A stretch of 64,000 bases of DNA from Bosea sp. AS-1 (GTDB taxonomy: Bacteria; Pseudomonadota; Alphaproteobacteria; Rhizobiales; Beijerinckiaceae): contig NZ_CP022371.1 in NCBI RefSeq assembly GCF_002220095.1, positions 1 to 64,000 of the forward strand. Reading direction: 5' to 3'. This document shows, piece by piece, positions 10,650-38,780 of this stretch. Within the stretch, counting starts at the first letter, position 1. Each line of letters begins with the position of its first letter. The translations under genes were made by a program, and so were the position numbers. The notes under the pieces are model-generated. The model had not been told where the DNA came from and ran no database searches. It was given only the letters and a program-made list of their open reading frames with translations.

Positions 10650-10666
10650 GCCTTAAGCGGGCCTTA
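10650..10666. promoter_or_regulatory. PmrA-type response-regulator box 1
   Basis: CTTAAG-CGGGC-CTTAAG, an exact direct repeat with a 5-base spacer, ending 25 bases before the SoxB-like ATG. The PmrA/BasR consensus is a CTTAA(G/T)-N5-CTTAA(G/T) repeat. Likely bound by the regulator encoded at 14346-15008. Confidence 0.7.
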
Positions 10667-10691
10667 AGCTTGCGCGGAAAAGGATGGACAG

Positions 10692-12143
10692 ATGGGCGCA
10701 CCGTCGAAGCGAACGATCACGTTTCTCCAGATCAACGACACGCACGGCTATCTCGAGCCGCATCCCGAGCTGGTCTGGGAAGGCTCGACGCCGCGGTTTC
10801 CGATACTCGGCGGATACGCGCGGATCGCAGCGTATTTCGAGCGGGTCCGGGCGGAGCGCCCTGGCGCCGTCGTCGCGCTCGACAACGGCGACACATTCCA
10901 CGGTACCCACGCCGCCGTCGCCTCGAAGGGAGGGGCGCTTGTCCCCCTGACCAACGCGCTCGGACTCGACGCCATGACCGCGCACTGGGAGTTCGCGTGG
11001 GGGCCTGCGCACTTTCAGGCGCTGGCCGGGCGTCTCGACTATCCGGTCCTGGCGATCAACTGTTACGAGTTGGAGACGGGTCGGCGGCCGTTCGCGCCCT
11101 CGCGCATCGTCGAGCGAAGCGATTTGAGGATCGGCGTCATCGGCATCGCGGCAACGATCATCGACAAGACGATGCCGCCGCACTTCAGCGAAGGGCTGCG
11201 CTTCACGGACGGCGACAAGGAGCTGCCGCAAGAGATCCGCAGGCTTCGACAGGAGGAGGGTGTCGAACTCATTGTCGTGCTGTCGCATCTCGGCTTGCCG
11301 CAAGACATCAAGCTCGCCGGACTGGTCGACGGAATAGACGTGGTGTTGAGTGGCCACACCCACGACCGCCTCGAGCGGCCGATTGTCGTCAACGGCGCGG
11401 TCATCATCCAGTCCGGGTGCCACGGCTCTTTCGTCGGACGGCTGGATCTCAGCGTCGACCACGGCGAGGTCAAGGTGGAGCGGCACGAGCTCGTCGCGAT
11501 GGATGACCGGATCGAGGCCGAGCCCCGCATGCGCGACCTCGTCGAGGCGGTCGTCGCGCCGGCGCGAGACAGGCTGGCCGCTCGCGTCGGCCACGTCGAC
11601 GCCGCGCTGCACCGGAACACCATGTTCGACTGCCCGATGGACGACCTGCTGCTGGCCGCGCTTTGCCAGGCGTCCGGACGGAAGATCGCGTTCTCGCACG
11701 GCTGGCGATACGGCGCGGCTGTGCCGCCCGGCCCGGTCACCCTGAACGATCTATGGAACATCATCCCGGTTAACCCGCCCGTCATGACGGCGACGCTGAC
11801 GGGCGAGGAAGTCCGTACGATGATGGAGCAGAACCTGCGGCGGACGTTCTCGCCCGATCCCTTCGACCAGAGAGGCGGCTTCGTGAAGCGCTTCTGCGGC
11901 CTGACGATCCTTGCGAAGATCGAAAACCCGGTCGGCTACCGCATCTCTGAAATCTTCGTCGGCGATGCGAAGCTCGACCCTGCAGCCTGTTACGATGTCG
12001 CCTTCGTCACTGCCCAGGGCGTGCCCGCCCAATTCGGCCGGGACCGCCGCCAGACGCCGGTGACGGCCATCGAGGCATTGGAGGCCTATCTGCGAAGCCG
12101 GCAAACCCCATCGACGACGCCCGGCCGCATTATCGTGTTCTGA
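10692..12143 (+). CDS. SoxB-like / 5'-nucleotidase-family metallohydrolase
   Basis: 483 residues of the calcineurin-like phosphoesterase plus 5'-nucleotidase C-terminal fold. Metal-site motifs: QINDTHGYLEPH, ALDNGDTFHGT, TAHWEFAWG, VVLSHLGLPQD, SGHTHDRL. The HWEF form, in place of the GNHEFD of nucleotidases, is typical of SoxB, the dimanganese enzyme that hydrolyses S-sulfonate from the SoxYZ carrier. Unlike usual SoxB it has no export signal and is shorter. No soxYZAX is in the window, so a different thiosulfonate substrate is possible. A PmrA-type box lies just upstream. Confidence 0.75.
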   Translation: MGAPSKRTITFLQINDTHGYLEPHPELVWEGSTPRFPILGGYARIAAYFERVRAERPGAVVALDNGDTFHGTHAAVASKGGALVPLTNALGLDAMTAHWEFAWGPAHFQALAGRLDYPVLAINCYELETGRRPFAPSRIVERSDLRIGVIGIAATIIDKTMPPHFSEGLRFTDGDKELPQEIRRLRQEEGVELIVVLSHLGLPQDIKLAGLVDGIDVVLSGHTHDRLERPIVVNGAVIIQSGCHGSFVGRLDLSVDHGEVKVERHELVAMDDRIEAEPRMRDLVEAVVAPARDRLAARVGHVDAALHRNTMFDCPMDDLLLAALCQASGRKIAFSHGWRYGAAVPPGPVTLNDLWNIIPVNPPVMTATLTGEEVRTMMEQNLRRTFSPDPFDQRGGFVKRFCGLTILAKIENPVGYRISEIFVGDAKLDPAACYDVAFVTAQGVPAQFGRDRRQTPVTAIEALEAYLRSRQTPSTTPGRIIVF

Positions 12144-13017
12144 CATTCAGGCTTTGAATGGATTCAGGAAAAGGGTCGCTAGCGTATCGGCTGCGTTCTC
12201 CGACAATGGTCGCGGTGCCCGACCTCGGCAACCAGGACGAAGAAGCGAGCTTTTGCTTCCGCGACAGATACGCTCGTCATTATTGTTGCCATGATGAGAC
12301 GTCTATAACGCCACCACTCCTGCGCGTCTTCATCCTATCTTCGGATCTCGCGTGACCGGCGAACTACAAAGACGCTTCCCAAGGGTTCACGGTGGTTAGC
12401 CCGGCAACCACGAACGAACTTATGTCTCGGGTCGCGACCATGAAACCGCGGGGCGCACGGCGGTTTCAAGAATTTCGCGCATCTCGGCTTCCGTAATGCG
12501 GCCATGGTGTCCGGCTGCGTCGACGGTGAGCACGGAGGAGACCGTATCGGGGAGCAGTCGCTCGGCCTCCACGCAAAGTTGCCGCGTGGTCTCCGCCAGC
12601 GGCGCGCCACGCGCGATCATGCGCAAGATCTTGTTTTGGAAATGCAACACTGATGTAAGGCGCCCTGCCGGGAGAACTCATCGCTGCGAACATTGACACG
12701 CACTGGTGAAATTCGACTTAGGCGAGACGTTAAATTTGAAGCGAAGGCAAAACGCCGTGTTAACAGGACTCGAAACGCGAAGAGCGCTGATCGCGCTGAC
12801 CACCTGGATTCGCTGCCGGTACGCCTGATCCCGGTGCAAATTGCCATGCATCGCCGTGGATTTCCGGATACCGATTCTGGACTTTCGGCGACGTTACCGG
12901 GAAGAGACATCCCATCCCCTAATCGTCGACGGGTCACCACGACGTGCCTTTCCAACAGCCGATATCGTCGCCATCGCCAACAGGGGGTAGGTCCCCTGAT
13001 CGCAACGTGCGTTTGCC
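12144..13017. other. Intergenic region with a GAF-domain gene remnant
   Basis: Only one protein-like piece is visible (12420-12650, separate entry). The remainder shows open frames without family matches. Downstream of the SoxB-like stop there is no obvious hairpin terminator. Confidence 0.4.
12420..12650 (-). pseudogene. GAF-type sensor protein, N-terminal remnant
   Basis: A 76-codon open frame reading FQNKILRMIARGAPLAETTRQL, then AERLLPDTVSSVLTVDAAG. This matches the opening of GAF domains found at the start of bacterial sensor/GGDEF-EAL proteins. The rest of the domain is missing and the frame ends in unrelated residues, so it is a leftover fragment. Confidence 0.45.
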
Positions 13018-14349
13018 TTACGTTGGCGCCGTTCCGCGTCGCCATATGACCCGGCAGGTCATCCCGGAGCGGTCTCCGCGGTTCAGCAGACTCAGTTGAG
13101 CGCCGACCCTATCCGCCGCCAGTTTTGCGATCGTCAGCCCCAGGCCGGTGCCAGTCGCTGTCCGGTTCCGGCCGCGATAAAAACGTTGCGCGACCAAGGG
13201 CAGCTCGTCTTCCGGGATGCCGGGTCCTTCGTCTGTCACAGCAATACCGTTTCCTTCAGCGAGCGCCGTCCAGCGAATCCGCCCCGGCGCCGACGCATGC
13301 GCGACAGCGTTCTCATGGAGGTTCCTCACGATCAGTTGGAGGCTCTCGCGATCCGCCTTCAGGCTCAGACCGTCCAGCGCCGGATCGACCTCAACGCTAA
13401 GGCCAGCGGGAGCAGCACACTCGGCGACAACTTCTCGGAGCAGGCTCCCGGCATTGGTGGTCTCTGTCGCTGACGGCACCGCCGACGCCTCGAGCTTGGC
13501 CAAAGCGAGGAGTTGCCGTGCAAGACGTGCGGTGCGGTCCACCGACACGAGCACCTGGCGAAGGGCCTTCTCGCGGATTGCGGCATCGGTCGCCGCCAGC
13601 GCGACCTGGACCTGGGTCTTGAGGCCTGCCAGCGGCGTTCGCAGCTCATGCGCGGCGAAGGCAGCCACCTCGCGCTCGTGGCGTCTCGCGGCCTCCACCT
13701 TGCCGAACAGTCCATTGAGGGCCGCGAGCAGTGGGCGCACTTCGGAGGGCGTTTCGTTCAATGCGATGGCTTGCATGTCCTCGCCATCGCGCCGCGCGAT
13801 GTCTCCTGCGATGACATTGAGCGGCTTCAATCCTCGACCAAGACTCGCCCAGATCATGAGCCCGAGAAGGGGCGCGATCAGCAGCGCAGGCGCCACCAGC
13901 CCTGTGACGAGATCGCGCACAAGCTGGTTGCGCAGGCCGATGCGGTCGCCGACGGCGACGCGGACCCCTTTGTGCTGGTCGACGATCGTGTAGATCCGCC
14001 AACTTTCACCGCCGACGTCGCGGTCGGCAAAGCCCTCCTTGTTCTGGGCTAGGCTCTGGTCCGGCGCGCCGCTGGAGCGCGCGACGAGTCGGCCGTCGAA
14101 CGACCAGATCTGGCAGGACAGTTGCTTCGTGTAGGCAACATCATCGATTGGAGCGACAGTGGCGGCGGCCGAGACGTTGCCGCTCGCCACCAGCGAATGC
14201 ACCATGCGCGCGGCCTCCTGCAGGCGCGTGTCGAGGACGTGCTGAAGCTCGGCGCGGCTGCTGAAGTAGATCCAGCCGACGGCGCACAGCCAGATCACGC
14301 CGGTCGCGACCATCAGGAGAACGAACAGACGGCGGCGAAGCGAACTCAT
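13018..14349 (-). CDS. Sensor histidine kinase (QseC/PmrB-like)
   Basis: 443 residues. First membrane helix about 8-30 (LFVLLMVATGVIWLCAVGWIY), a periplasmic sensor region of about 120 residues containing one cysteine, second helix about 155-178, HAMP, then the HisKA phosphoacceptor (FAAHELRTPLAGLKTQ), an N box (NLHENAVAHA), G1 (DEGPGIPEDEL) and G2 (GTGLGLTIAK). The start overlaps the response-regulator stop by four bases. It presumably senses a periplasmic redox or sulfur signal, given the target genes; that is inference. Confidence 0.88.
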   Translation of the reverse strand: MSSLRRRLFVLLMVATGVIWLCAVGWIYFSSRAELQHVLDTRLQEAARMVHSLVASGNVSAAATVAPIDDVAYTKQLSCQIWSFDGRLVARSSGAPDQSLAQNKEGFADRDVGGESWRIYTIVDQHKGVRVAVGDRIGLRNQLVRDLVTGLVAPALLIAPLLGLMIWASLGRGLKPLNVIAGDIARRDGEDMQAIALNETPSEVRPLLAALNGLFGKVEAARRHEREVAAFAAHELRTPLAGLKTQVQVALAATDAAIREKALRQVLVSVDRTARLARQLLALAKLEASAVPSATETTNAGSLLREVVAECAAPAGLSVEVDPALDGLSLKADRESLQLIVRNLHENAVAHASAPGRIRWTALAEGNGIAVTDEGPGIPEDELPLVAQRFYRGRNRTATGTGLGLTIAKLAADRVGAQLSLLNRGDRSGMTCRVIWRRGTAPT

Positions 14350-15008
14350 GAGGGCATCCGAATGCGGTAGCCGAGCCCGCGCACCGTCTCGATCGCGTCG
14401 CGGCCGATCTTGCCTCGCAGGTTGTGGATGTGGACCTCGACGGCGTTGCTCTCCACCTCTTCCTGCCAACCGTAGAGCCGGTCCTCGATCTCGGCGCGGG
14501 ACCGGATGACCCCTGGACGCTCCATCAGCGCCGTGAGCACGGCGAGTTCGCGTCGCGAGAGCGAGAGCGGGCGGCCGTCGATCGTCGCGACCTGTGTCGC
14601 CGGGTCGATGACGATGCCTGCCGCAGTCAGCACGGGATGGGCGCGTCCCGCCTGCCGCCTGCCGAGCGCCCTGAGGCGGGCTGAAAGCTCATCGAGGTCG
14701 AACGGCTTGCCGAGGTAGTCGTCGGCGCCGGTGTCGAGACCCCGCACCTTGTCAGCCGTCTCGTCGAGCGCGGTCAGCAGCAGCACCGGCGTCAAATCAC
14801 GGTCACGCCGCATGTCGGCCAGGAGGTCGAGGCCGGAGCCGTCCGGCAGCATCACGTCGAGAACGATTGCGTCGAAGCGGATCGCGGCCAGCGCCGCCCG
14901 AGCCTCGTCGCAGGAGCCGACGGGATCAATCGTCCAGCCATTGAGCGCCAGGCCAACCTTCAAGCCATCGGACAGGACGGCGTCGTCTTCGACCACCAGA
15001 ATGCGCAT
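14346..15008 (-). CDS. OmpR/PmrA-type response regulator
   Basis: 220 residues: receiver domain 1-115 (VVEDDAVLSDG acidic pocket, phosphoacceptor Asp in AIVLDVMLPDGSG, Lys in LGKPFDLDEL) and C-terminal winged helix (LSLSRRELAVLTALMERPG, then ESNAVEVHIHNLRGKIG, then VRGLGYRI). The PmrA/QseB subfamily recognises CTTAA-type direct repeats, and four such boxes lie in this window, one of them between this gene and the divergent dsbD. It is probably the regulator of that set. Confidence 0.88.
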   Translation of the reverse strand: MRILVVEDDAVLSDGLKVGLALNGWTIDPVGSCDEARAALAAIRFDAIVLDVMLPDGSGLDLLADMRRDRDLTPVLLLTALDETADKVRGLDTGADDYLGKPFDLDELSARLRALGRRQAGRAHPVLTAAGIVIDPATQVATIDGRPLSLSRRELAVLTALMERPGVIRSRAEIEDRLYGWQEEVESNAVEVHIHNLRGKIGRDAIETVRGLGYRIRMPS

Positions 15009-15053
15009 GTGTGTTCCGGTTCCCTTTATCTTGGTTGGCCTTCGCCTCCGCGC

Positions 15054-15070
15054 CTTAAGGCTGGCTTAAG
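15054..15070. promoter_or_regulatory. PmrA-type response-regulator box 2
   Basis: CTTAAG-GCTGG-CTTAAG, with the spacer identical to box 4. It lies between the divergent response-regulator gene (start 15008) and dsbD (start 15121), so it could serve autoregulation and dsbD control at once. Confidence 0.72.
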
Positions 15071-15120
15071 CTGCCGAACGTTGGTCCGCGCTCGTCGTCA
15101 CAGCAGGACCAACGCAGCGA

Positions 15121-16928
15121 ATGTCGGTCGGAATAAAAACAAGTATCGCGCTTCTCATCGCCTTTCTCGGCCTTTTTGCGTCCGGTATGGCTGTCGCGGG
15201 GACGCCGCCGCCGGCGGACAAAGTCTTCGGCCTCACTGTGGAGCGAAGCGGCGCAGACGGATTGACACTGCATTTTGCAATCGCGCCGGGCAACTACCTC
15301 TACCGCGACAGCCTGCAGGCGAAGCTTAACGGCAGGGACCTGCCTCTCGCCCTGCCGGCAGGCGATTCCAAAGACGATCCCAATTTCGGAGTGGTGGAAG
15401 TCTATCACAGCGGCGTCGAGGGCCGCCTGATCGGGCTGCCTGCGTCAGGCCAGATCGAGGTCGTGTCGCGCGGCTGCGCCGAGCAGGGGATCTGCTATCC
15501 GCCGCTCACCCGGTCGGTCGACATCGCCACGCTTGCCGTCACCGAGATGAAGGCCGGGCTTGGCGGGGACGACGGCGCAAGGACCCAAATTTCGGGAACG
15601 GAAAAGCATGCGCCGCCATCAGGGCAGCCGGCTGGCGCAGCCGCGGGCGGCGACGGCGACCTAGGGTCCCTTCTAGGCGGCGGCCTCGTCCCCATGCTGG
15701 CCGCCTTCCTCGGCTTCGGCCTGCTGCTGTCACTGACGCCCTGCGTCTTCCCGATGATCCCGATCCTGTCGGCAATGCTAGGCGGCGCCGGCGGCAGGCT
15801 GTCTGCGGGCCGGGGTTTTGTGCTGTCGCTCACCTATGCGCTGGCCATGGCCGGAGCCTACGGGCTTGTCGGCCTCGTTGCGGGGCTGACGGGAGCCAAC
15901 CTCCAGGCGGCGCTGCAGACACCTTGGGCGCTCGGCCTGACCGCCGCGCTGTTCGTGGCGCTGTCGTTGTCGATGTTCGGCGTCTACGACCTGGCGCTGC
16001 CGGCCGGGATCGCCGCGCGGTTTTCCGGCCGCGGCGGAAACGGCTCACTGGCCGGAGCTGCGCTGCTCGGCTTCGGGTCGGCCCTAATCGTGGGCCATGC
16101 GTCACGCCCCCGCTTGCCGCGGCCATGCTCTACGCGATCCAGACTGGCGAGGCCGGCAAGGGCGCCGCGGCGCTGTTCGCGCTCGGCCTCGGCATGGGAT
16201 TGCCGCTGGTGGCCGTGGGCACCTTCGGTGCCGGAATCCTGCCGAAGGCCGGGCCGTGGCTCGACCGCATCCGGCCGGTCTTCGGCGCGGTGTTCCTCGC
16301 GATCGCGGTGATGCTCGTGGGGCGACTGCTCCCCGGTCCCGCCGTCCTCGGCCTCTGGGGCGTGTTCGCGATCGGCGCTGCGGTCTTCGTCGGCGCCTTC
16401 GATCGGCTCGATGCGACGAGCGGCCCGATGCGACGGCTTGGCAAGGCGGCAGGCGTCGCCGCCGTCGTCTACGGCGCCGTGCTGATCGTCGGCGCTGCCG
16501 CCGGCAACGGCGATCCGTTCAGTCCCCTCCAGAGCCTGCCTGGCATGTCCGCAACCACGCTCGCCGACCGCCCTGAAGCGCGCGTGACGTCGCTGGCGGC
16601 GCTCGACAAGGCGCTCGCCGCCTCGCAGGCCTCCGGGCATCCGGTACTCGTCTCCTTCACGGCCGACTGGTGCACGGTCTGCAAGTCGAACGAGGCCGTG
16701 ATGGCCGAGCCCGCCGTCCGCGGCCGGCTCGAGGCGCTTCCGAGCATCGTCGCCGACGTGACGGCCTACAACGAGGCGACCCGCGCCCTCATGGCGCGCT
16801 TCGCGGTCGTCGGGCCGCCAACCCTGCTTCTCGTCGACGTACACGGCCGCGAAATCCCCGGCTCGCGCCTGACCGGCCCAATCACCGTCCAAAGCATTGA
16901 AGCGCGCCTCGCCCAGGCGGGCGTCTGA
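15121..16928 (+). pseudogene. dsbD: Thiol:disulfide interchange protein DsbD, one frameshift
   Basis: About 602 residues. Signal peptide to about residue 27, then the N-terminal periplasmic domain with its cysteine pair (CAEQGIC), then an eight-helix transporter domain with the two membrane cysteines (LTPCVFPM and, after the break, GPCVTPPLA), then a C-terminal thioredoxin domain (FTADWCTVCKSNE). It moves electrons from cytoplasmic thioredoxin to periplasmic thiol proteins. The frame breaks near 16095, where GTGGGCCATGCG lacks a G; the length is one short of a multiple of three. First gene of an operon with the DsbA-like protein and the L,D-transpeptidase. Confidence 0.85.
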
Positions 16929-16950
16929 AACGCTTCCCAGGAGACGTCGC

Positions 16951-17592
16951 ATGCAACGCAGGAACTTCATCATAATGGCGGCGGCCGCGGCGGCGCTGCC
17001 GCTTTTCCTTTCCGGGAGATCGGGCGCCGCGCTCGCGCAAGACATTCACAAGAACGCGATCCTCAACGACCCGGACGCCCCGGTCAGCGGCAACCCCAAG
17101 GGCGACGTTACCATCGTCGCCTTCACCGACTACAACTGCCCCTTCTGCAAGAAGGCCGAGCCCGACCTGAACCGCATCGTCAGGGAGGACGGCCAGGTCC
17201 GCCTCGTCCACAAGGACTGGCCGATCCTGACGAAGGCCTCGGTCTACGGCGCGCAGCTCGCTTTGGCGGCGAAGTACCAAGGCAAGTACGACCTCGTCCA
17301 CGGCGCCCTGATGGCGATCCCCGGCATCAAGGTCCCGGAGGACCGGATGCTGGAGGCGGTCAAGGCCTCCGGCGTCGACATGGCGCGGCTCGACGCGGAC
17401 TTGAAGACGCACTCCGCGGCCATCGCGGCGCTGCTTCAGCGCAACGTGGATCAGGCCAATGCGCTTGGCCTCCAGGGAACGCCGACCTATCTGATCGGTC
17501 CGTTCCGGACGATGGCGCTGGACTACAAGGGCTTCAAGGAAGCGCTGGCTGAGGCGCGCCGCCGGCAGGCGGCTGGCGACGTCGTGAAATAA
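16951..17592 (+). CDS. DsbA/DsbG-family periplasmic thioredoxin-fold protein
   Basis: 213 residues. The N-terminus has a basic n-region and hydrophobic segment ending at an ALAQD cleavage-like site. The thioredoxin fold shows [16 protein letters not shown] (CPFC active site) and the cis-proline loop [10 protein letters not shown]. Start 16951 follows CAGGAGAC; longer frames run back into dsbD. Probably kept reduced or oxidised by the DsbD encoded 22 bases upstream. The final TAA overlaps the next ATG by one base. Confidence 0.85.
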
Positions 17593-18281
17593 TGCGTACT
17601 TCAATTGCGTCTATGACGGCGCGGGTTTCCGCCGCGCTGGCGCTGGCGGTGTGCCTTGCCGCCTGCACCACCGTGTCCGGCCCAGACCCGATGCCGTTCG
17701 CCGCCGCGCCGACCCCGGCAATGCCGGGCGCGGAGCGCTACGGCGCGGTCACCGACGAGAAGTTTCCCGTCCCGGCCGTCTCGCTCGCCGACCTCAAGCC
17801 CCGCTACATGCGCCAGCTCGTCGACTACCCGACCGACCAGCCGGCGGGGACGATCGTGGTCGACCCGGCCCACCACTTCCTCTACCTCGTGCAGGGTGGT
17901 GGAAAGGCGCTGCGCTACGGCGTCGGCGTCGGCAAGGCCGGCATGGAGTGGTCAGGCACCGCCAATATCGCCTACAAGCGCGAGTGGCCGCGCTGGACGC
18001 CTACGTCAGACATGATCGCGCGCGATCCGAAGACCTACAAGAAATGGTCTGTCGGCATGGACGGCGGGCAGAACAACCCGCTCGGCGCGCGCGCCCTCTA
18101 CCTATTCGAGAACGGCAAGGACACGCTCTACCGCATCCACGGCACCAACGAGCCGTGGTCGATCGGAAAGTCGATGTCGTCGGGCTGCATCCGCATGATG
18201 AACCAGGACGTGATCGACCTCTACAGCCGCACTCCATCGGGCACGAAGGTCGTGGTGCTTCCGTCGGGGGCAGGCACGTGA
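17592..18281 (+). CDS. L,D-transpeptidase (YkuD domain) lipoprotein
   Basis: 229 residues. The N-terminal signal ends in a lipobox (VCLAAC), so it is probably lipid-anchored in the periplasm. The catalytic YkuD domain covers about 85-225: [15 protein letters not shown], then [23 protein letters not shown] with the catalytic His and Cys. The family forms 3-3 peptidoglycan cross-links or attaches proteins to peptidoglycan through its active cysteine. Placement as third gene after dsbD and a DsbA-like gene suggests its catalytic cysteine is protected by that system. Confidence 0.85.
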
Positions 18282-18759
18282 GCGCGTCGCCGTTGCCGGA
18301 GCGGTCGCCGGCCTCGTACATTCGGCCGAGCGGCCACGCGACGGGCGGGAGTGATTTCTATTCAATCTAACCTCGGTTTGATCTGGATCACAGCCCTCCG
18401 GAGGAGGGACTGGGAGTGTCCTCGAAAGAACGCGCACTGGGAGGATGCACGCCGGTTTTGAGAGATACGAGATTGACGGTGATGGCAGACTCCACGACTT
18501 TCCGATCGACCCGACGTCGCGGGGCTATCTTGCGAACAAGCTCGTCCATGCGGCGCCAAGCGCGCCCTTTGGGCTAGAAGGCATCCTGCACTGGCTGCTC
18601 GGCATGCCACGAGATTCAGCGCCTTTCGCGGGATCCACCGCCGTGCGTCGCGCAGTTCGTCCCCGGCTCATGCGCGATCTTGTTACAAGAGGTTTCCATC
18701 GCAAGATCGGTCCGACACGGTTTGCACCGGCCGTCACCGCAACCTGCCGCCAACCTGCG
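18282..18759. other. Intergenic region without a supported gene
   Basis: About 480 bases between convergent genes. A plus-strand frame beginning ATG 18445 after GGGAGG reads GFERYEIDGDGRLHDFPID before running antisense through the thioredoxin gene; I cannot assign it to a family. Confidence 0.4.
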
Positions 18760-19314
18760 TCAGGCTGGTGCAAATGGCCGGAGCCGCCGCAGGAGGTCGG
18801 CCGCGGTGAACGATCCGACCGACCGCGTGCCGGCGAATTCGCGGCCGTTCGCCGTGTCGACGATGAACACCGTCGGCGGCCCGTCGGCGTGGAGATATTG
18901 AAGGAGTTCGCGCGTGGTCCGATTCGTTTGGGTCACGTCGACGCCCACGAGCGCGACGTGTTCGAGGGCGCGCTGCACCTCGGGGTCGGGAAGTATTCTC
19001 TGGTTGATGACCGAGCAGACCTCGCACCATTCCGCCCCGATGTCGACGAGCGCGGTCTTGTAGCGAGACGCCAGGCGAGCCAGGCCGCTTCGGTAGTCAG
19101 CGATGTTCGAAACGTCGACGCGAATGCTTCTGACAACGAGAGACGCCGCTCGCACGGAACTGCTCGCGCCCGCGGCGACAGCCATCGCCAGGCCGCCGAC
19201 CACGAGCTGACGCCGCGTTGGCGTTGCGCCGCCGCGGCGGACGGCGCATTCGACGGGAGCACCCTTCCCAGCCTGGATCGTGCCGGCGAATCCTTCTGAT
19301 CGCGTTGAACGCAT
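18760..19314 (-). CDS. Exported thioredoxin-like protein (DsbD C-domain type)
   Basis: 184 residues. A twin-arginine-like signal (TRRQLVVGGLAMAVAAG) is followed by a thioredoxin domain whose active site is ALVDIGAEWCEVCSVINQ, with cis-proline loop DGPPTVFIVD. The spacing and the DPEVQRALEHVALVGVDVT segment resemble the C-terminal domain of DsbD rather than classical thioredoxin. A PmrA-type box lies 43 bases upstream, so it should be co-regulated with dsbD and tsdBA. Confidence 0.8.
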   Translation of the reverse strand: MRSTRSEGFAGTIQAGKGAPVECAVRRGGATPTRRQLVVGGLAMAVAAGASSSVRAASLVVRSIRVDVSNIADYRSGLARLASRYKTALVDIGAEWCEVCSVINQRILPDPEVQRALEHVALVGVDVTQTNRTTRELLQYLHADGPPTVFIVDTANGREFAGTRSVGSFTAADLLRRLRPFAPA

Positions 19315-19356
19315 GGTCGGCCCTCGATTGTCCGGCGGCGACGAGGGTCGTCTGAG

Positions 19357-19373
19357 CTTAAGGCAAACTTAAA
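19357..19373. promoter_or_regulatory. PmrA-type response-regulator box 3
   Basis: CTTAAG-GCAAA-CTTAAA, one mismatch from the other boxes, 5-base spacer kept. It is upstream of the leftward thioredoxin-like gene starting at 19314. Confidence 0.65.
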
Positions 19374-19490
19374 GGTCGCAACCGGCTTCCGGCAGTATAA
19401 TCGATTTGCCGAGGCCCGGAGACTGTGCAAAGCGCACAATTCAGAAGGAAAAGTTGGAAAAGCGACCGACTCTCCGAAGCTAGGTTCACC

Positions 19491-20294
19491 TCACGTCGGA
19501 CCTATAAGCTTGCTGATTTCGGCATCGAGGCTTTCAGGCGACACCTCCCCGACGTGGATGTCGGCGAGGGTGCCGTCGGCTCTCAGGAACAGTGTCGTCG
19601 GCAATCCCACCGTGCGGTAGTGGCGCGGCACCTGCATCGACTGGTCGAGCAGGACGTGGCCAAGCTCGAGGTGCTGTGACGCGAGGTACGAACGGATCGC
19701 CTGCGTCCCCTCGCCCTGGTTGACGAAGAGAAAGACCACGTCGTCGCGGCTCGCTGCGACCTTGGCGAGCAGCGGCATCTCTCGCCGGCACGGCGGACAC
19801 CAGCTTGCCCAGAGGTTGACGACGACGGGCTTGCCGGCCATCGCGCTGATCGCGAGCGGCGGCCCCTGCATCTGCTCGAGGGCGAAGGTCGGCGCGGCCT
19901 GGCCGAGCGTGGCTCTGGTCAATTGCGTGACGGCGACCGCGACGAGCACACTCAGGCCGATCGCTGCAGCGGCCGCGACGCCTGCCTTGACCGATCGGAT
20001 AAAGAAAATGCTGACGAGCAGGGCGCCGACGAGTCCGGCGATCGGCTGGAAGCCGCCCTGCCAGAATGCGAACACCCTCCACGGCTCCGCGGCGAAGCTG
20101 TCCCAGTGCAGGGCGACGTGACCGGCACGCGCAGCGAGGAGCGCCGCGATCAGGGCCCAGCTCGACCACTTTCCGATCACGGGGTCAACGCGCCACGCCA
20201 ACACCGCTGTGACGGCAATGAAGACGAACACGCCGGCGAGCGCCGCGGCCTGGTGGACGGAGAAGACAAAAGGGCCGAGGGCAACCGCATTCAT
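19491..20294 (-). CDS. Membrane-anchored TlpA/ResA-like thioredoxin with Lgt-like N-domain
   Basis: 267 residues. The N-terminal half has about four membrane helices and the segment FAFWQGGFQPIAG, reminiscent of prolipoprotein diacylglyceryl transferase. The C-terminal half (about 130-267) is a TlpA-type thioredoxin: PTFALEQMQGPPL, VVNLWASWCPPCRREMPLLAK, VGLPTTLFLRADG. It probably reduces specific periplasmic disulfides, for example apocytochrome c haem-binding cysteines of the TsdBA cytochromes encoded downstream (inference). The Lgt-like part lacks enough of the enzyme to be catalytic. Confidence 0.8.
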   Translation of the reverse strand: MNAVALGPFVFSVHQAAALAGVFVFIAVTAVLAWRVDPVIGKWSSWALIAALLAARAGHVALHWDSFAAEPWRVFAFWQGGFQPIAGLVGALLVSIFFIRSVKAGVAAAAAIGLSVLVAVAVTQLTRATLGQAAPTFALEQMQGPPLAISAMAGKPVVVNLWASWCPPCRREMPLLAKVAASRDDVVFLFVNQGEGTQAIRSYLASQHLELGHVLLDQSMQVPRHYRTVGLPTTLFLRADGTLADIHVGEVSPESLDAEISKLIGPT

Positions 20295-20400
20295 CGGGCA
20301 GATTCCATTTTTTAGCTCATTTCTGACGAGGGCGATTGCGCGCAATGCCGCGTCACCGAAGGCGGGCGCACCCGACACTGTGCGATCCCGAATGCACGGC

Positions 20401-21390
20401 CTACTGTCCGCTGTAGCGCTTGAAACCGTACTTCTCGAACGCGGCGAACGCTTCGTCCGACTGAATGAACGACAGCCATGCCTTTGCAGCGTCCGGGTGC
20501 GGCGCGTTGTGGACCTCGGCCCCCGCGTAGATCGCGGTCGTGTTCTGGCCGGCGGGGATGTCGAGGTGTTCGATCGGGTGACCAGCCTGCTCCTGGAAGA
20601 TCGCCTCCGACTTCCACGTGACGCCGGCGTCGGCAACGCCTTGCATCAGAAACAGTGGCGTCTGCCGATGGTGGATGTGGGTGAGGATCGTCGACCCGTC
20701 CTTCACCTTCGTCTCGTAGACCTTCTCTGCGAGTTGGTCTCCACCGGCCTTGGCAAGTGACATCTTGATCTGCCGCGCAATGCCCTCGAATTCCGGATTG
20801 GGCATCGCTAACCTGACGTCGTCGCGTCCCATGTCCTTGAGCCCAGTGATGTGGCCCGGATTGCCCTTGGCGACCATGATGGCGAGGTCGTTGGTCACAT
20901 AGGGCACGGCGGGTCCATCGAGCCTGCCTTGCGAGATCAGGTCTTGGACCTTCTTCAGGCCAGCGAAATAGACGTCGGCTTTTGCCGTGAAGGTGAGATT
21001 GCCGGACGTAATCTTTCCGTCGGCATCCATCTGCCGAACCAGCAAGCCCGGCGGAATGGTTTCCCAGAATATCTTTCCCTTGTATTCGGGGTGTACCGCC
21101 TCGAACGCCTTGACCAAGGGCGCCATGGCGAAGAAGTAGTTTCCGCCGACGTAGAGGACGAGTTTCGGGTCCGAGATGTCGCCGTGGAAGTCCGCTATGC
21201 TGTTGACTTCGGGCACGGTGAACTCGAAGCCGCGGTCCTCGACGTCGCTGTTCGTGCCGTGCTGCCACGGCGGGAAGACCTCGCCGCGATAGCCTGGCGC
21301 CTGGGCCTTGCCGTTCCAGCCGTCCGCGGCGGAAACGGTGGTTGCGAACGCTGCGCACGCGATGGCCGTCGCCAGGATGAGAATTCGCAT
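20401..21390 (-). CDS. Periplasmic solute-binding protein (ModA-like), orphan
   Basis: 329 residues. Signal peptide MRILILATAIACAAFATTVS, then AADG. The body resembles type II periplasmic binding proteins of the molybdate/tungstate/sulfate group (LVLYVGGNYFFAMAPLVKAF, FTAKADVYFAGLKKVQ, FIQSDEAFAAFEKYGFKRY). Start 21390 is chosen because GGGAGG sits seven bases before it, whereas the earlier ATG is only one base from that site. No ABC permease or ATPase is nearby. It is encoded in one run with the Tat protein and tsdBA, so it may bind a sulfur oxyanion for the oxidation system rather than for uptake. Confidence 0.75.
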   Translation of the reverse strand: MRILILATAIACAAFATTVSAADGWNGKAQAPGYRGEVFPPWQHGTNSDVEDRGFEFTVPEVNSIADFHGDISDPKLVLYVGGNYFFAMAPLVKAFEAVHPEYKGKIFWETIPPGLLVRQMDADGKITSGNLTFTAKADVYFAGLKKVQDLISQGRLDGPAVPYVTNDLAIMVAKGNPGHITGLKDMGRDDVRLAMPNPEFEGIARQIKMSLAKAGGDQLAEKVYETKVKDGSTILTHIHHRQTPLFLMQGVADAGVTWKSEAIFQEQAGHPIEHLDIPAGQNTTAIYAGAEVHNAPHPDAAKAWLSFIQSDEAFAAFEKYGFKRYSGQ

Positions 21391-21403
21391 CGGCATCCCT
21401 CCC

Positions 21404-22192
21404 TTATGCTGCATAGGCGAAGCCGGCCCGCTGCAGCTCCGGCAGCGTGCCGACCGCGCCCGGCGTCAGCACGACGCCCGGCAGGAGGTGGTTCGTCAGC
21501 TCGGCAGCGAGCTGGTCGTGCGTGAGCTTGTCGGGGTTGGCGTCAGCCTTGATCAGGGCCGCGGCTTCTTCCCAGATGGCGTTGTGGCACGACAGGAAGA
21601 CGACACCGCGCTTTATCAGCGCGGGGATCGAGTTGTTGGCGGGCGAGTAGACGCCGTCGGCGTTCTCGAAGTCCTCCGCGTCCGCCGTGGCTCCCTTGGC
21701 GTCGACGATGAGAGTGTTGGTCTTGAACTTGTCGCCGGCGAGCCTGGTCAGCTGGTATTTGTCCCAGATCGACTGGTCGAGCAGCGCCAAATGGGCGGAG
21801 CCGTGCGTCGCCGACACCACCAGGAAATCGGGGTGCCTGAACGACCAGATCTGCGCGTTGAGGGAATTGCGCATCAGGTTCAGCCAGGGGCCGCCGATCA
21901 CGGTGTTGTCCCAAGCCTGCTTGTGCGGCGACTTGTAGTCGACCACGAGCCTCAGCGCCTCGTCGTCCCACTCGGACGGCTTGGTCAGGATCATCGGCAC
22001 GGTCTTGAAGTCCCTGCGGCGCGGCGCCTTGGCGAGCGCTTCGGCGAGGTCCTTCAATGGCCGTCCGTCCGCGGGAATCTCGGATGCGACGTCGGCGGCT
22101 TTCGCGGCGGCCGCTTCCGGCAGGCCGAGCATTCCGGCGGCCGCGACGGCGCCCGCCGCCTGGATGATATGGCGTCGCTTCAAGTCCGTCAT
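21404..22192 (-). CDS. Tat-exported protein of unknown function in the thiosulfate cluster
   Basis: 262 residues. The start has a twin-arginine signal (MTDLKRRHIIQAAGAVAAAG), implying export of a folded, perhaps cofactor-bound protein. The mature part shows WDNTVIGGPWLNLMRNSLN, FLVVSATHGSAHLALLDQ and VVFLSCHNAIWEEAA, with one cysteine and several histidines. I do not recognise an enzyme family; the last motif is vaguely DsrE-like. It is downstream of tsdBA and 13 bases upstream of the solute-binding protein, so the three are likely one transcript. Confidence 0.65.
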   Translation of the reverse strand: MTDLKRRHIIQAAGAVAAAGMLGLPEAAAAKAADVASEIPADGRPLKDLAEALAKAPRRRDFKTVPMILTKPSEWDDEALRLVVDYKSPHKQAWDNTVIGGPWLNLMRNSLNAQIWSFRHPDFLVVSATHGSAHLALLDQSIWDKYQLTRLAGDKFKTNTLIVDAKGATADAEDFENADGVYSPANNSIPALIKRGVVFLSCHNAIWEEAAALIKADANPDKLTHDQLAAELTNHLLPGVVLTPGAVGTLPELQRAGFAYAA

Positions 22193-22250
22193 GGCAACCT
22201 CCCTGTCTTCGTTTATGGCTCGCCGTCTGGACGGCGATGATATGAATGGG

Positions 22251-23915
22251 TCACTCCCCGACCGTGCCCGCGGGCGGCGAGTGCTCGCCGAGCGTCGCGC
22301 CGTTGACGGTCTGCCCGTACATGTCGAGCGGCGAATCGTGGTGCGCCTTGCGCGTCGCGGCGACCGAGTCCTTGAACCTCGGGTCCTGCGGCCGCTCGTG
22401 GCTGTCGATATAGGCCGCGACGTCCCAGGCCTCGGCATCGCTGAGCGTATTGCCCTCGCTGAACGGCATGTTCGCCTTCACGAAGCCGGCCGCATTGTTG
22501 ATCGAGCTCATGCCGGCGCCCCAATTGTAGGAGCGCGCGCCCCACAGCGGCGGGAACACGACGGCGCCGTCGGCGGTCTTCTGGCCCTCGCCGTCCGCGC
22601 CGTGGCAGAGCGCGCAGTGCTGCGCGTAGACTTGCTGGCCGTGCGCGTAATCGATCTTGGCGGGCTCCGCGAGCTTCGGATAGCCTTGCCCCGCAACCTT
22701 CTCCCCGGTCGGCGCGCCCTTGGCCAACGCATAGGCATAGCTCTCGAGCGCGACCAGGACCTTGTCGCCGAGCGGTGGCGCCTTGCCGTTCATGCTGAAG
22801 CGGAAGCAGCCCTGCATGCGCTCGGCGAAGCTGTTCACGTGGCCGTTCTTCGCGCGATAGGCCGGGTAGACGAGGTAGGCCGCCCAGAACGGCGCGGAGT
22901 TCGCCAGCCGGCCGCGGTCGAGATGACAGCTCGCGCAGCGCAGGTCGTTGCCGACGAACGCGCCGGCGTTCGCCTTCGTGTCGGTGAAGATCGCTTCGCC
23001 GAGCTTGACCATCTTGCCGAATTCGCCTGTCGGCAGCTTTTCCTCGGGAACGGGCGTGAACTGGACTGTTGCAGACGGTTTTGCCGCCGGCTTCGCTGCG
23101 GATGCTGCCGGGGCCGTGCTCGACTGCATCTCGGCGTGATGCGGAAGCGAATAGCCGATGAAGCCGGCGAGGCCGAGGAAGACCACACCCGCGACCCATG
23201 TCCTCGCATCGATGGTGGGCGTGTCAGTCATGGGGCTGTCCTTCGACGCGACATGGAGGCTCGCGTAGTAGGCGGCGACCGCCTTGACGTCGTCATCGCT
23301 GAGCTTATGGGCGATGCCGCTCATCAGGTGCAGCGGGTCGTTGCCGCGCTTGCCGTCCTTCCAGGCCGCGATCTCGTTCTCGATATAAATCGCTCCTTGG
23401 CCGGCGAGGCGCGGAAAGGCGGTCCCAACGCCTTGGCCGGCCGGGCCATGGCATTGGCTGCAACCGGGGACGCCGTGCGACCAGTCGCCGGTGGTTGCGA
23501 GCGCGGCGCCGCGCGCGAGAAGTTTGGCGTCCGGTTTCTCAGCAGTCGCGTCCGCGACCTGCTGGCCGGCGTAGAATTCGGCGACCGCTTCGCGCTGCTC
23601 CGGCGTCAAGGCCTTGGCGATGGGTTGCATGGTGTCGTTCTTGCGCGTGCCGTCGACGAAGGATGCAAGCTGGTGCACGAGGTAGGCGGCGTCGAGGCCG
23701 GCCAGCCGGGGAAAGCCGCTCTCCGCGTTGCCCTCGCCGTGCGCGCCGTGGCAGGAGGCGCAGGCTGGCGCGCCGGAAACTCCGTTCGCCGCGATCGCGG
23801 CGCCGTCCTGCGCCGCCGCCGGCGAGGCCAGGAGCCCGGCGGCGAGCACGGCGGCACAGGCGAGGTGCTGGCGGTGGGGTTGCTTCAAACGGGAACTCGC
23901 TTCGCTTCGAGGCAC
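22251..23915 (-). CDS. tsdBA: Tetrahaem thiosulfate dehydrogenase, TsdB-TsdA in one frame
   Basis: About 554 residues. The first part is a dihaem cytochrome c4-like TsdB with signal peptide (AVLAAGLLASPAAAQ), CASCH and CSQCH. The second part (from Met at 23231) is TsdA: an internal hydrophobic helix, CASCHLDRGRLANSAPFW, the cysteine of RMQGCFRFSMNG (corresponding to the haem-1 ligand Cys of characterised TsdA) and CALCHGADGEG. It oxidises thiosulfate to tetrathionate in the periplasm. AAGGA lies nine bases before the internal ATG, and the join sits at a CCCC run, so the fusion may be a one-base deletion artefact. Start GTG 23915 is uncertain; TTG 23888 is possible. Confidence 0.82.
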   Translation of the reverse strand: MPRSEASSRLKQPHRQHLACAAVLAAGLLASPAAAQDGAAIAANGVSGAPACASCHGAHGEGNAESGFPRLAGLDAAYLVHQLASFVDGTRKNDTMQPIAKALTPEQREAVAEFYAGQQVADATAEKPDAKLLARGAALATTGDWSHGVPGCSQCHGPAGQGVGTAFPRLAGQGAIYIENEIAAWKDGKRGNDPLHLMSGIAHKLSDDDVKAVAAYYASLHVASKDSPMTDTPTIDARTWVAGVVFLGLAGFIGYSLPHHAEMQSSTAPAASAAKPAAKPSATVQFTPVPEEKLPTGEFGKMVKLGEAIFTDTKANAGAFVGNDLRCASCHLDRGRLANSAPFWAAYLVYPAYRAKNGHVNSFAERMQGCFRFSMNGKAPPLGDKVLVALESYAYALAKGAPTGEKVAGQGYPKLAEPAKIDYAHGQQVYAQHCALCHGADGEGQKTADGAVVFPPLWGARSYNWGAGMSSINNAAGFVKANMPFSEGNTLSDAEAWDVAAYIDSHERPQDPRFKDSVAATRKAHHDSPLDMYGQTVNGATLGEHSPPAGTVGE

Positions 23916-23937
23916 AAATCTGCGGGGCGCCTCGAAG

Positions 23938-23954
23938 CTTAAGCCAGCCTTAAG
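23938..23954. promoter_or_regulatory. PmrA-type response-regulator box 4
   Basis: On the minus strand it reads CTTAAG-GCTGG-CTTAAG, identical to box 2. It lies 22 bases upstream of the GTG (50 upstream of the TTG) of tsdBA. Confidence 0.72.
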
Positions 23955-23983: not shown

Positions 23984-25246
23984 TCACCAGCCGCGCTCCC
24001 GATGTTTGATGTCGATCGTCCCGCCCTTCAGCATGTGCGACCAGTAGAGCCAGGGCAGGAACTTGGTCTTGAGGTACCACATGCTTCGGCGCGGCACGCG
24101 CGGGTCGAAGGGGAAACTCGGCGTCACCTTGCCGCCATAAGCGAATTCCGCCAGCACGATCTTGCCGAGCGCCACCGTCAGCGGACAGGAGCCGTAGCCG
24201 TCATAGGCCTTCGGCATTGGCTTGCCGGCCATCGCCGCCTGCAGGTTTGCGACCGCGACCGGCGCCTGCAACCGTACCGCCGCCGCCGTCTTGGCGTTCG
24301 AGGTCGAGGCGGCATCGCCGAGCGAGAAGACGTTAGGGTAGCGCACGTGCCGCAGCGTCGCCTGGTCGACCTCGATCCAGCCCGCCGCGTTGGCAAGCGG
24401 GCTCTCGCTCACGACGTCCAAACCCGTCTGCGGCGGCACGACATGGACCATGTCGAACGGCATCGCCACCTCGCTTGTCGCGCCGTCCTTGTTGGCGACC
24501 GCGAACAGCGCGGTCTTCTTCGGCCCGTCGACGGCCTTGAGCGTGTGGCGGTAGCAGACCTCGATGCCGTAGCCGTCGACGGCCTTCTGCAGGGGCGGCA
24601 CGAAGAACGACACGCCGAACAGCGCGTCTCCGGCGAGGCAGAACTTCAGCGTCGAGGCGGAGAGTTTGCCTCTGCGCTTCAGGTGGTCGGCCATCATATA
24701 CATGATCTTCTGCGGCGCGCCGGCGCATTTGATCGGCATCGCCGGCTGGGTGAACAGCGCCGTGCCGCCCTGAAATTCCCGGATCAGCCGCCAGGTGTAT
24801 TCGGCGGTGTCGGCGCGGTAGTTGCTGCACACGCCATTGTGGCCGAGTGTCTCATTCAGCCCCGCGATCGCGTCCCAGTCGATCTTCAAGCCCGGGCAGG
24901 CGACAAGGTAGTCGTATCCGACGGCGCGGCCGTCGCTCAGCCGCACGAGGTTGTTGTCGGGATCGAAGGCGCTGACCGCGGCCTTGATCCATGCCACGCC
25001 GCTCGGGATCAGCGCGCGCTCCTCGCGCGCGGTCTGCCGGCGACTGAACACGCCCGCGCCGACCAGCGTCCAGCCCGGCTGGTAGGAGTGGGTCTCCGCC
25101 GGCTCGACGATCGCGATGTCGAGGCGGGCGTCACGCCGCATCAGCTCGGCCGCGACGGTGATCCCGGCCGCGCCGCCGCCGACGATGACCACCCCGTGCT
25201 TCAGGTCGGGCACGGCTGCGATGTGCTTCTGGGCCGCAGCTTCCAC
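23984..25246 (-). CDS. sqr: Sulfide:quinone oxidoreductase
   Basis: 420-residue flavoprotein. The N-terminal FAD fold is at about residue 18 (VVIVGGGAAGITVAAELMRR). The conserved segment SYQPGWTLVGAG follows, then the cysteine of HNGVCSNY and the second cysteine in PIKCAGAPQKIMYM. The C-terminal FAD site is VFSLGDAAS. It oxidises sulfide and feeds electrons to quinone, with persulfide on the two cysteines as intermediate. It lies upstream of the tsdBA box on the same strand and divergent from the Blh operon, sharing the AT-rich region at 25261-25320. Confidence 0.87.
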   Translation of the reverse strand: MEAAAQKHIAAVPDLKHGVVIVGGGAAGITVAAELMRRDARLDIAIVEPAETHSYQPGWTLVGAGVFSRRQTAREERALIPSGVAWIKAAVSAFDPDNNLVRLSDGRAVGYDYLVACPGLKIDWDAIAGLNETLGHNGVCSNYRADTAEYTWRLIREFQGGTALFTQPAMPIKCAGAPQKIMYMMADHLKRRGKLSASTLKFCLAGDALFGVSFFVPPLQKAVDGYGIEVCYRHTLKAVDGPKKTALFAVANKDGATSEVAMPFDMVHVVPPQTGLDVVSESPLANAAGWIEVDQATLRHVRYPNVFSLGDAASTSNAKTAAAVRLQAPVAVANLQAAMAGKPMPKAYDGYGSCPLTVALGKIVLAEFAYGGKVTPSFPFDPRVPRRSMWYLKTKFLPWLYWSHMLKGGTIDIKHRERGW

Positions 25247-31965: not shown

Positions 31966-32390
31966 CGCGCCTCCTCGGCTGGGATCTCGGACGGCAGCGG
32001 AAGCCCGGCCTGGCGCCGCAGTTTCGAGCCGTAGGCCACGGTCATCTCGGTCAGTTCGCCGTTGATCGCGGCGATTACCTCGTGCAGCCCGCGCCACACC
32101 GGCTCGGTGTCCTCGATGCGCACCGCCTGGCCGCGGTGGATGGCGCGCAGGACCTGCGAGAGGTTGCGGCCGACCATGCGGACCTGCTGGGCGAGCTCGA
32201 CGACGGCGCGCGTGTTCTCGGTCGACAGCGCCGGACCGGCCTGCACGGACGCACGAATGAGGCGACGCACCACCTCGGCCTTGGGAACGCCGAAGAGCAC
32301 GACGGCCGCCTGCAGCCGCGCCTCGTCGGCGTCCGACAGCTCGGTTCGAAGCCTCGGTTTGCGTCGCGGTGCTGTGGCGGAGCGGGCCAT
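31962..32390 (-). CDS. mobC: MobC-like relaxosome accessory protein
   Basis: 142 residues. Start 32390 has a strong GGAAGGGGAG site; the longer frame upstream lacks one. Basic N-terminus, then a ribbon-helix-helix-like region (LSDADEARLQAAVVLFGVPKAEVVRRLIRA) and the MobC motif region VRMVGRNLSQVLRAIHRG. It would bind near oriT and help the relaxase. The oriT is probably in the 32391-32600 interval. Confidence 0.75.
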   Translation of the reverse strand: MARSATAPRRKPRLRTELSDADEARLQAAVVLFGVPKAEVVRRLIRASVQAGPALSTENTRAVVELAQQVRMVGRNLSQVLRAIHRGQAVRIEDTEPVWRGLHEVIAAINGELTEMTVAYGSKLRRQAGLPLPSEIPAEEAR

Positions 32391-38741: not shown

Positions 38742-38780
38742 GCCGTGCTGCTCCTGGTTCGCGGTTGACGGGTGAGGCGC

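Follow-up and report, generated by a model that had tools for sequence, protein, structure and literature searches.

A probable PmrA/QseB-type two-component circuit for periplasmic thiol repair, extended by sulfur genes on a plasmid of Bosea sp. AS-1

Gene content and boxes of the locus

The window, that is, the whole 64,000-nucleotide stretch analysed here (contig NZ_CP022371.1 of Bosea sp. AS-1, positions 1 to 64,000), contains a plasmid-borne cluster of genes for periplasmic thiol chemistry, sulfur metabolism and two-component signalling, along with four copies of a PmrA-type repeat (Table 1).

Table 1. Genes and repeat boxes of the cluster
Feature	Position	Strand	Remarks
Box 1, CTTAAGCGGGCCTTAAG	10652..10668	.	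23 bp 5' of the ATG of the SoxB-like gene
SoxB-like metallophosphatase/5'-nucleotidase fold protein	10692..12143	+	
Sensor kinase (2CSK_N + HisKA + HATPase_c)	13018..14349	-	443 aa; Cys79 in QLSCQIW
PmrA/QseB-type response regulator (Response_reg + Trans_reg_C)	14346..15008	-	Box-clade member; domain and NCBIfam models
Box 2, CTTAAGGCTGGCTTAAG	15054..15070	.	In the intergenic region shared by dsbD and the divergent regulator gene
dsbD (DsbD_N, DsbD_TM, thioredoxin-like C-terminus)	15121..16928	+	Frameshifted near 16090
DsbA/DsbG-like exported thiol oxidoreductase	16897..17592	+	CPFC motif; longest frame, start approximate
L,D-transpeptidase (YkuD)	17592..18281	+	
Exported thioredoxin-like protein	18760..19314	-	Similar to DsbD C-terminal domain
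Box 3	19357..19373	.	One mismatch (CTTAAA); 42 bp 5' of the minus-strand thioredoxin gene
Membrane-anchored TlpA/ResA-like thioredoxin	19491..20294	-	Last in predicted tsdBA transcription unit
Extracellular solute-binding protein (SBP_bac_11)	20401..21414	-	Same orientation
TetH thiosulfate dehydrogenase	21404..22192	-	NCBIfam, 393.5 bits (cut-off 300)
TsdB-TsdA fusion	22251..23888	-	545 aa; TTG start at 23888; first gene behind box 4
Box 4	23938..23954	.	49 bp 5' of the TTG of the TsdB-TsdA fusion
Sulfide:quinone reductase-like flavoprotein	23984..25246	-	Upstream neighbour; box 4 past its 3' end
Blh-type sulfur transferase/dioxygenase	25346..26659	+	Without box

The original prediction placed four CTTAAG-N5-CTTAAG-type sites upstream of four transcription units. 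All four are present, the first starting at 10652 rather than 2 bp earlier at 10650, and, with up to two mismatches allowed, the window contains four matches, whereas 100 shuffles gave 0.26 on average and never more than two. Although CTTAAG is a short palindrome, an origin by chance or from a dispersed repeat is contradicted by these shuffles, by the fixed spacing of 5 and by conservation in the genome scans described below, and its probability is negligible. Boxes 2 and 4 do share a spacer, provided that one of them is read in the opposite orientation. The boxes precede the units that had been named, but the assignment of one box to each unit needs amending, as box 2 also faces the divergent regulator gene and can serve both promoters. 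Two features of the boxes count against the explanation preferred below, namely the short gap between box 1 and the annotated start of its gene, and the mismatch in box 3, the sole box of the thioredoxin gene. A fixed -10 element behind the boxes was considered and dropped; the readings show no more than a weak preference for A at position +28, counted from where the box begins (56% of 106 promoter readings, with divergent sites counted twice).

What had been described as tsdBA behind box 4 is a single frame, followed by tetH, the solute-binding protein gene and tlpA. Four CXXCH motifs are found in the fusion, at 43 and 143 in the TsdB part and at 318 and 425 in the TsdA part, corresponding to two haem sites per subunit. 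In TsdA, haem 1 is ligated by a cysteine within a conserved CxxxSxNG-like motif, and the fusion contains GCFRFSMNG as a candidate counterpart; it also gives a sub-cut-off match to the SoxA model TIGR04484 (49.5 of 110 bits). The predicted SoxB-like hydrolase has the expected fold but misses the NCBIfam SoxB cut-off (TIGR04486; 315 vs 550 bits), its best stretch spanning profile positions 109-543 of 556, and no signal peptide is evident in it by eye. The DsbA-like protein scores 22.1 bits against the NCBIfam DsbG model (cut-off 124). The frameshift in dsbD counts against the preferred explanation. When the window was scanned with Rfam and for tRNAs, a plasmid counter-transcribed RNA was the sole result. 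The whole cluster was also sought as a DNA-level copy in other plasmids, and no plasmid record reaches 80% coverage.

Regulator clade and distribution of the box

The assignment to the PmrA/QseB type, with PmrA-like boxes, agrees with the 2CSK_N domain of the kinase, the spacing of 5 and an alignment with BasR/PmrA (8jo2, 4s04) over regulator residues 1-216, including EVHIHNLR-KIG near the C-terminus. Among the NCBIfam models matched, PmrA scores highest, at 217.6 bits and thus below its cut-off of 330, and QseB reaches 206.5 bits, likewise short of its cut-off of 345. The regulator belongs to a monophyletic response-regulator clade (support 100/100), which is set off by a sharp gap, from 326 to 272 bits, in scores against a profile of 12 rows, made up of the window's own regulator, two regulators of similar plasmids and nine picked up next to boxes; given that choice of rows, the clade is not defined in full independence of the box. 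The clade search scored at most seven candidates per genome, and further members are possible. Among 40 clade regulators, 37 have an exact box less than 100 bp upstream, two more have one ahead of the first gene of their operon, and the last, in genome G219, has just a one-mismatch site at -149. Clade member L032 (genome G073) lacks a box at its regulator, which counts against the preferred explanation. At 30 regulator loci, all 30 CTTAAG pairs lying within 40 bp show a spacing of 5.

The entire 5.84-Mb genome of Bosea sp. AS-1 contains four exact sites, three in the window and one on the chromosome (C3:4770877). The latter has all 17 bases in common with box 2 and precedes a regulator/kinase paralogue and dsbD-dsbA-ldt. 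Chromosomal one-mismatch sites include C3:4153055 and C3:269490, of which the first was discarded, as it adjoins a kinase reading as PAS-type and looks like chance. Another regulator might chiefly occupy the boxes of the window, for example the chromosomal paralogue, which is 76% identical to the plasmid regulator and whose box matches boxes 2 and 4 exactly; however, the paralogue belongs to the clade as well, and in other genomes the box goes with the clade, making such an arrangement very improbable.

In a blind scan of the order, exact boxes occur in 56 of 397 genomes, including all 39 clade genomes as against 17 of the 358 others (Fisher p 6e-41). A scan of the class found boxes in 36 of 385 genomes, the Bosea genome included. 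Of the other 35 box-positive genomes, 29 contributed loci to a comparison. Beside some of these boxes lie regulator-like matches of at most 48% identity, and one locus (L255) ends in a partial match (56% over 52 residues); no dsb, ldt or sulfur matches were found beside the boxes of these 29 genomes. On these loci a class-wide motif was rejected, and in the genomes sampled the regulon is concentrated in one order, namely Rhizobiales/Hyphomicrobiales, judging from the named relatives. Outside the order, the regulon is present in Paracoccus (L039). None of three same-genus genomes sampled has an exact box, which counts against the preferred explanation.

Target genes and competing readings

The expectation that the targets are periplasmic thiol and sulfur genes is borne out by 48 other genomes (10 from the family scan and 38 from the order scan), which were found through the box alone and contain the same target set. 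The tally for clade genomes comprises 78 exact boxes, of which 75 adjoin genes of the regulator/kinase, dsb/tlpA/thioredoxin, L,D-transpeptidase or sulfur groups; where the clade is absent, the figure is 1 of 17. The 78 include three from the window itself, and six of the 75 rely on query proteins themselves picked beside boxes, without which the count is 69 of 78. The other three have no recognised neighbour, one of them preceding an apparent GT2-type glycosyltransferase gene. Further box-flanked genes encode SorA-like sulfite dehydrogenases, DsrE-like and CcoN-like proteins and, at one locus (L160, genome G411), a DsbG of 333.6 bits against the cut-off of 124. As read from gene content, the constant part of the regulon is the regulator/kinase pair with dsbD, dsbA, tlpA/trx and ldt, i.e., periplasmic thiol reduction plus an L,D-transpeptidase, and the sulfur genes are lineage-specific additions.

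The original prediction had suggested a circuit dedicated to TsdA-type thiosulfate metabolism. On such a reading, thiosulfate or tetrathionate would be what the kinase senses, and the role of the thiol genes would be limited to serving sulfur oxidation. Boxes indeed stand ahead of tsd genes in three genomes (the window's, G173 and G460) and elsewhere ahead of SorA-like, DsrE-like and SoxB-like genes; homologues of the kinase occur in Xanthobacter, Ancylobacter, Bosea and other genera, several of which are thiosulfate oxidisers. Nevertheless, tsdA matches at E<=1e-25 are confined to 9 of 49 clade genomes (10 matches), leaving 40 without, and a box lies upstream of only three of these 10 tsdA genes, seven having none, while the main places of boxes in clade genomes are dsb/ldt and regulator genes. 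The chromosomal paralogue, too, adjoins dsbD-dsbA-ldt, and sulfur queries found no match in 20 kb of that locus. Dedication to thiosulfate is thus unsupported and unlikely. Boxes at orthologues, whose absence had been named in advance as a refutation, are conserved at the dsbD/regulator promoter and just partly at tsdA. That most tsdA, SoxB-like (box at 2 of 14 tested) and SorA-like (2 of 16) genes of clade genomes lack a box also counts against the preferred explanation.

Alternatively, the signal could be copper, another metal or cell-wall damage, in line with PmrAB and Scs/Cpx, with dsb/ldt repairing metal-oxidised thiols. The PmrA/QseB-like sequence of the regulator, the L,D-transpeptidase in the core and a MerB-MerA fusion encoded on the same plasmid would fit such an envelope or metal-stress regulon, whereas neither metal pumps nor lipid A enzymes are encoded among the box-flanking genes identified, and sulfur enzymes recur as targets; we regard it as improbable.

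Sensor kinase and proposed circuit

The 2CSK_N sensor domain of the kinase (49.3 vs 23.2 bits) aligns with that of QseC (2kse), and its periplasmic Cys79 is invariant in 45 of 45 kinases and in 120 of 120 among the sequences listed, both sets including the window's own. The corresponding residue of E. coli QseC is Phe, and the cysteine is not present in any of 34 other kinase matches placed by a crude motif search. In the structure model (mean pLDDT 81.5, pTM 0.55), Cys79 falls within the first predicted sensor strand (77-83). A PDB fold search with this model matched HprS at the kinase-domain level; its 50 listed matches are mainly kinase domains and include no QseC sensor-domain entry.

Taken together, these observations make it probable that the window holds one copy of a conserved accessory two-component circuit of alphaproteobacteria, which activates a periplasmic thiol-repair set and to which sulfur genes were added on the plasmid. 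The QseC-like kinase, its periplasmic cysteine oxidised or S-modified as the putative signal, would phosphorylate the regulator, which would dimerise head to tail on CTTAAG-(S C N G S)-CTTAAG and switch on its own gene pair and the repair set. Electrons would cross the membrane via DsbD and be handed on by the DsbA/DsbG-like protein and the TlpA/thioredoxin proteins. The likely client is the L,D-transpeptidase, presumably co-transcribed, an enzyme that depends on a reduced catalytic cysteine. On the plasmid of this lineage, the SoxB-like gene and the operon tsdBA-tetH-tlpA appear to have been added, and enzymes making or consuming thiol-reactive sulfur compounds would thus be expressed together with the repair system. 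If so, a kinase auto-labelled 'QseC' or 'ATP-binding protein' belongs to a regulator of periplasmic thiol reduction that is distinct and recurs among alphaproteobacteria, and sulfur oxidation is linked to envelope repair, with a candidate sensor residue and a sharp binding motif to hand. An intact relative, with its box, is carried by the megaplasmid of the laboratory strain Methylorubrum extorquens AM1.

A more specific version, which we put forward only tentatively, has the kinase sense periplasmic thiols directly: its activity might be set when the single invariant Cys79 is oxidised, persulfidated or S-sulfonated, and the regulon would reduce periplasmic cysteines, protect L,D-transpeptidases and, where such genes are present, remove thiosulfate, sulfite or sulfide. 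This would amount to an envelope response to reactive sulfur species under a PmrA-class system.

Comparison with known systems

Our literature search, covering titles and the beginnings of abstracts, with subscription papers mostly outside its reach, found no paper describing this circuit. The PmrA box of enteric bacteria is of the CTTAAG-N5-CTTAAG type, and the present system resembles PmrAB/BasRS and QseBC in box type, in the alignment of its regulator with BasR/PmrA and in a 2CSK_N kinase that aligns with QseC. It differs in a regulator below the NCBIfam PmrA and QseB cut-offs, a spacer that is mostly SCNGS, an invariant sensor Cys in place of the Phe of QseC and the absence of lipid A genes among the box-flanked genes identified. 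The DsbG/DsbC system of E. coli, reportedly described by Depuydt in 2009 as protecting single cysteines, likewise involves DsbD, a DsbG/DsbA-like reductase and L,D-transpeptidases as a client class; here, however, the parts stand together under what appears to be a dedicated two-component system, and the transpeptidase is a putative client. ScsABCD, a DsbD-like/DsbA-like/TlpA-like operon, is similar in content, and HprSR, a redox-sensing envelope two-component system, is similar in kind, but the regulator reaches just 129.8 of 353 bits against the HprR model.

Two-component control of periplasmic thiosulfate/tetrathionate metabolism is known from Acidithiobacillus, where the EnvZ/OmpR-like RsrS/RsrR acts through a 19-bp inverted repeat bound by RsrR to drive tetH and tqo, and the sigma54-dependent TspR of TspS/TspR drives sox (PMC6335251). 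Control of sulfur metabolism is the common element, while thiol-reduction or L,D-transpeptidase targets are not mentioned in the accessible part of that account (PMC6335251). In the alphaproteobacterium Hyphomicrobium denitrificans, thiosulfate oxidation is similarly under cysteine-dependent control, but through the ArsR-type repressors SoxR and sHdrR, which respond to sulfane sulfur and are not two-component systems (PMC12423496). Overall, the circuit of the window represents a new regulon within a known regulator class.

Boxes, putative target genes and replicon context

The PmrA-like box CTTAAG-N5-CTTAAG was found four times at up to two mismatches in the 64-kb window, the site at 19357 with one mismatch, against a mean of 0.26 and a maximum of 2 in 100 shuffles of the window. 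The whole genome (5.84 Mb in three contigs, the window lying on the 112,144-base contig C2) has four exact boxes, three of them within one 13-kb stretch of the window. The fourth, chromosomal and identical to box 2 in its 17 bases, is placed between a regulator paralogue (76% identical to the window regulator) and a second dsbD-dsbA-ldt set. The original prediction had put the boxes upstream of exactly four transcription units; the gene layout around them agrees with four units and, because of the position of box 2, adds the regulator itself.

Features of the window and their coordinates
Feature	Position	Remark
Box 1	10652	upstream of SoxB-like protein gene
Box 2	15054	between regulator/kinase pair and divergent dsbD-dsbA-ldt
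dsbD	15121-16928	apparent frameshift near 16090
Box 3	19357	upstream of exported thioredoxin-like protein gene
TetH-type model	21404-22192	thiosulfate dehydrogenase candidate
TsdB-TsdA fusion	22251-23888	thiosulfate dehydrogenase candidate
Box 4	23938	upstream of TsdB-TsdA fusion gene
Relaxase domain	29650-32433 (-)	
RepC genes	34045-35310 and 37532-38584	two copies
Counter-transcribed RNA (ctRNA), plasmid-type	38700-38743	one
ParA/RepA-type ATPase	39800-41014	
Phage-integrase-family protein	41223-42530 (-)	
MerB and reductase domains	49679-51907 (-)	single frame
ArdC-like anti-restriction domain	60682-61410 (-)	

The SoxB-like protein scores 315 bits, far below the SoxB model's cut-off of 550, and a signal peptide is not evident in it. 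The TsdB-TsdA fusion has 545 aa and four haem motifs, and 3' of it on the same strand lie tetH, whose product scores over its own model's cut-off, a solute-binding protein gene and then a tlpA-like gene. One gene string here holds two different thiosulfate dehydrogenase candidates; TetH matches occur in only 4 of the 49 genomes carrying related regulators. The dsbD frameshift, seen against the chromosomal paralogue, is either a mutation or a sequencing error.

The two RepC genes, the ParA/RepA-type ATPase and the single ctRNA suggest a composite replicon, and the relaxase, ArdC-like and integrase-family genes are mobile-plasmid background. The frame joining MerB (alkylmercury lyase) and pyridine-nucleotide-disulfide reductase domains reads as a putative MerB-MerA fusion.

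Co-occurrence of box and regulator

Blind scans with the exact box alone as query, gene content being left aside, recovered it in 12 of the 99 family genomes and in 56 of the 397 order genomes. The three sampled genomes of the own genus contain no exact box, and the circuit is therefore accessory. A regulator profile was run on the same 397 genomes, scoring up to seven candidates per genome. Nine of its 12 rows came from beside boxes, two from similar plasmids and one from the window, which limits its independence of the box. It gave 40 matches in 39 genomes at 326-396 bits, the next best reaching 272. All 39 genomes with this regulator clade were box-positive, versus 17 of the 358 others (Fisher p 6e-41). 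An exact box begins less than 100 bp upstream of 37 of the 40 regulators; in genomes G194 and G423 it sits before ldt, the first gene of an ldt-regulator-kinase unit, and the only site at the G219 regulator, at -149, carries one mismatch.

In a maximum-likelihood tree of 142 regulators, the 55 clade members group together with 100/100 support. An exact or one-mismatch box lies less than 200 bp from 52 of them, many of these loci having been fetched on account of a box and 30 coming from the regulator scan; no such box was found within that distance at L225 and L229 (the genes of G194 and G423) or L032 (G073). CTTAAG-type boxes, exact or with one mismatch, also occur at PmrA-type regulators outside the clade (L069, L076, L082, L108 and L256), at about -60 to -76 and with different spacers.

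Spacing is 5 in all 30 CTTAAG pairs less than 40 bp apart at 30 regulator loci. The spacer fits S-C-N-G-S in 54 of 78 clade boxes versus 1 of 17 others, and toward dsb and sulfur genes the usual reading is CTTAAG-SCTGS-CTTAAG-STG.

Composition of the putative regulon

The family and order scans together gave 49 clade genomes with 80 exact boxes between them; 78 of these boxes, including three of the window's own, were tallied; the two of G344, one being its regulator's box (L206), were left out, their 20-kb context missing. Recognised genes start less than 260 bp from 75 of the 78, in overlapping classes: regulator or kinase (45), thiol or L,D-transpeptidase (59), and sulfur or oxidase (9). 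Six of the 75 depend on queries chosen beside boxes (DsbG, SorA twice, DsrE, CcoN and a second DsbA); if these six are set aside, the count is 69 of 78. The boxes at position 10001 of L152, L184 and L202 have no recognised neighbour. Of 17 boxes in genomes lacking the clade (that of G461 left out), one flanks such a gene, an ldt adjoining an exact box at L187 in G370, where the profile scan found no clade regulator.

Family searches identified further genes beside boxes. The DsbG of G411 scores 333.6 bits (cut-off 124), and G173 has a DsrE-like protein. The SorA-family proteins of G049 and G073, at 486.5 and 458.8 bits against a cut-off of 600, are by these scores relatives, not confirmed members. 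CcoN-like oxidase subunits in G152 and Paracoccus indicus score under the CcoN cut-off.

The original prediction set conservation of the box in related genomes as its check, which came out in favour at the regulators and only in part at tsdA: within about 1.5 kb upstream, an exact or one-mismatch box precedes 3 of 10 tsdA, 2 of 14 SoxB-like and 2 of 16 SorA-like matches in the 49 genomes. At one further tsdA match (L278) the box is downstream, preceding a CcoN-like gene. In the own genome, the chromosomal soxA and SoxB-like (C3:565785) genes have neither an exact nor a one-mismatch box. The sulfur genes thus recur as lineage-specific members of the regulon, and its constant part is the thiol set.

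A cysteine in the sensor kinase

The kinase, a QseC-type protein, has a 2CSK_N domain; several homologues are annotated automatically as QseC. Directly before a periplasmic Q-x-W motif (QLSCQIW in the window kinase), a Cys is present in every one of the 45 clade kinases aligned and in all of the best 120 of 1585 database matches, which are at least 60% identical to the query; both sets include the window kinase. E. coli QseC has an aligned Phe instead. Of 78 other kinase-model matches at the comparison loci, 34 could be placed by a simple motif search; none of the 34 has Cys (mostly F, V, L or I), and some look out of register. The remaining 44 have no such motif. In a predicted model this residue of the window kinase, Cys79, belongs to the sensor domain's first strand.

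Proposed mechanism and comparison with known systems

The most likely mechanism resembles that of PmrA: a head-to-tail dimer of the regulator would occupy the box and switch on a reducing system of the periplasm. Thiols and disulfides react with thiosulfate, tetrathionate and sulfite, and this would account for the presence of sulfur enzymes in the regulon. We propose that modification of Cys79 may be the signal. The operon of dsbD, a DsbA/DsbG-like gene and ldt recalls E. coli, in which DsbG reportedly protects the single cysteines of L,D-transpeptidases. A review (PMC9144841) names YbiS as one of few periplasmic proteins having reduced thiols and states that DsbC also mends oxidised cysteines.

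The papers searched, few of them from subscription journals, describe no PmrA-class circuit with these targets in their titles or abstract openings. Thiosulfate/tetrathionate metabolism in Acidithiobacillus is under two-component control by RsrS/RsrR (EnvZ/OmpR-like) and TspS/TspR (sigma54-type) (PMC6335251), and ArsR-type repressors act in the control of thiosulfate oxidation in Hyphomicrobium (PMC12423496). We see in the present circuit a regulator class that is already known, here with a regulon that is new and conserved and with a sensor residue that is distinctive.
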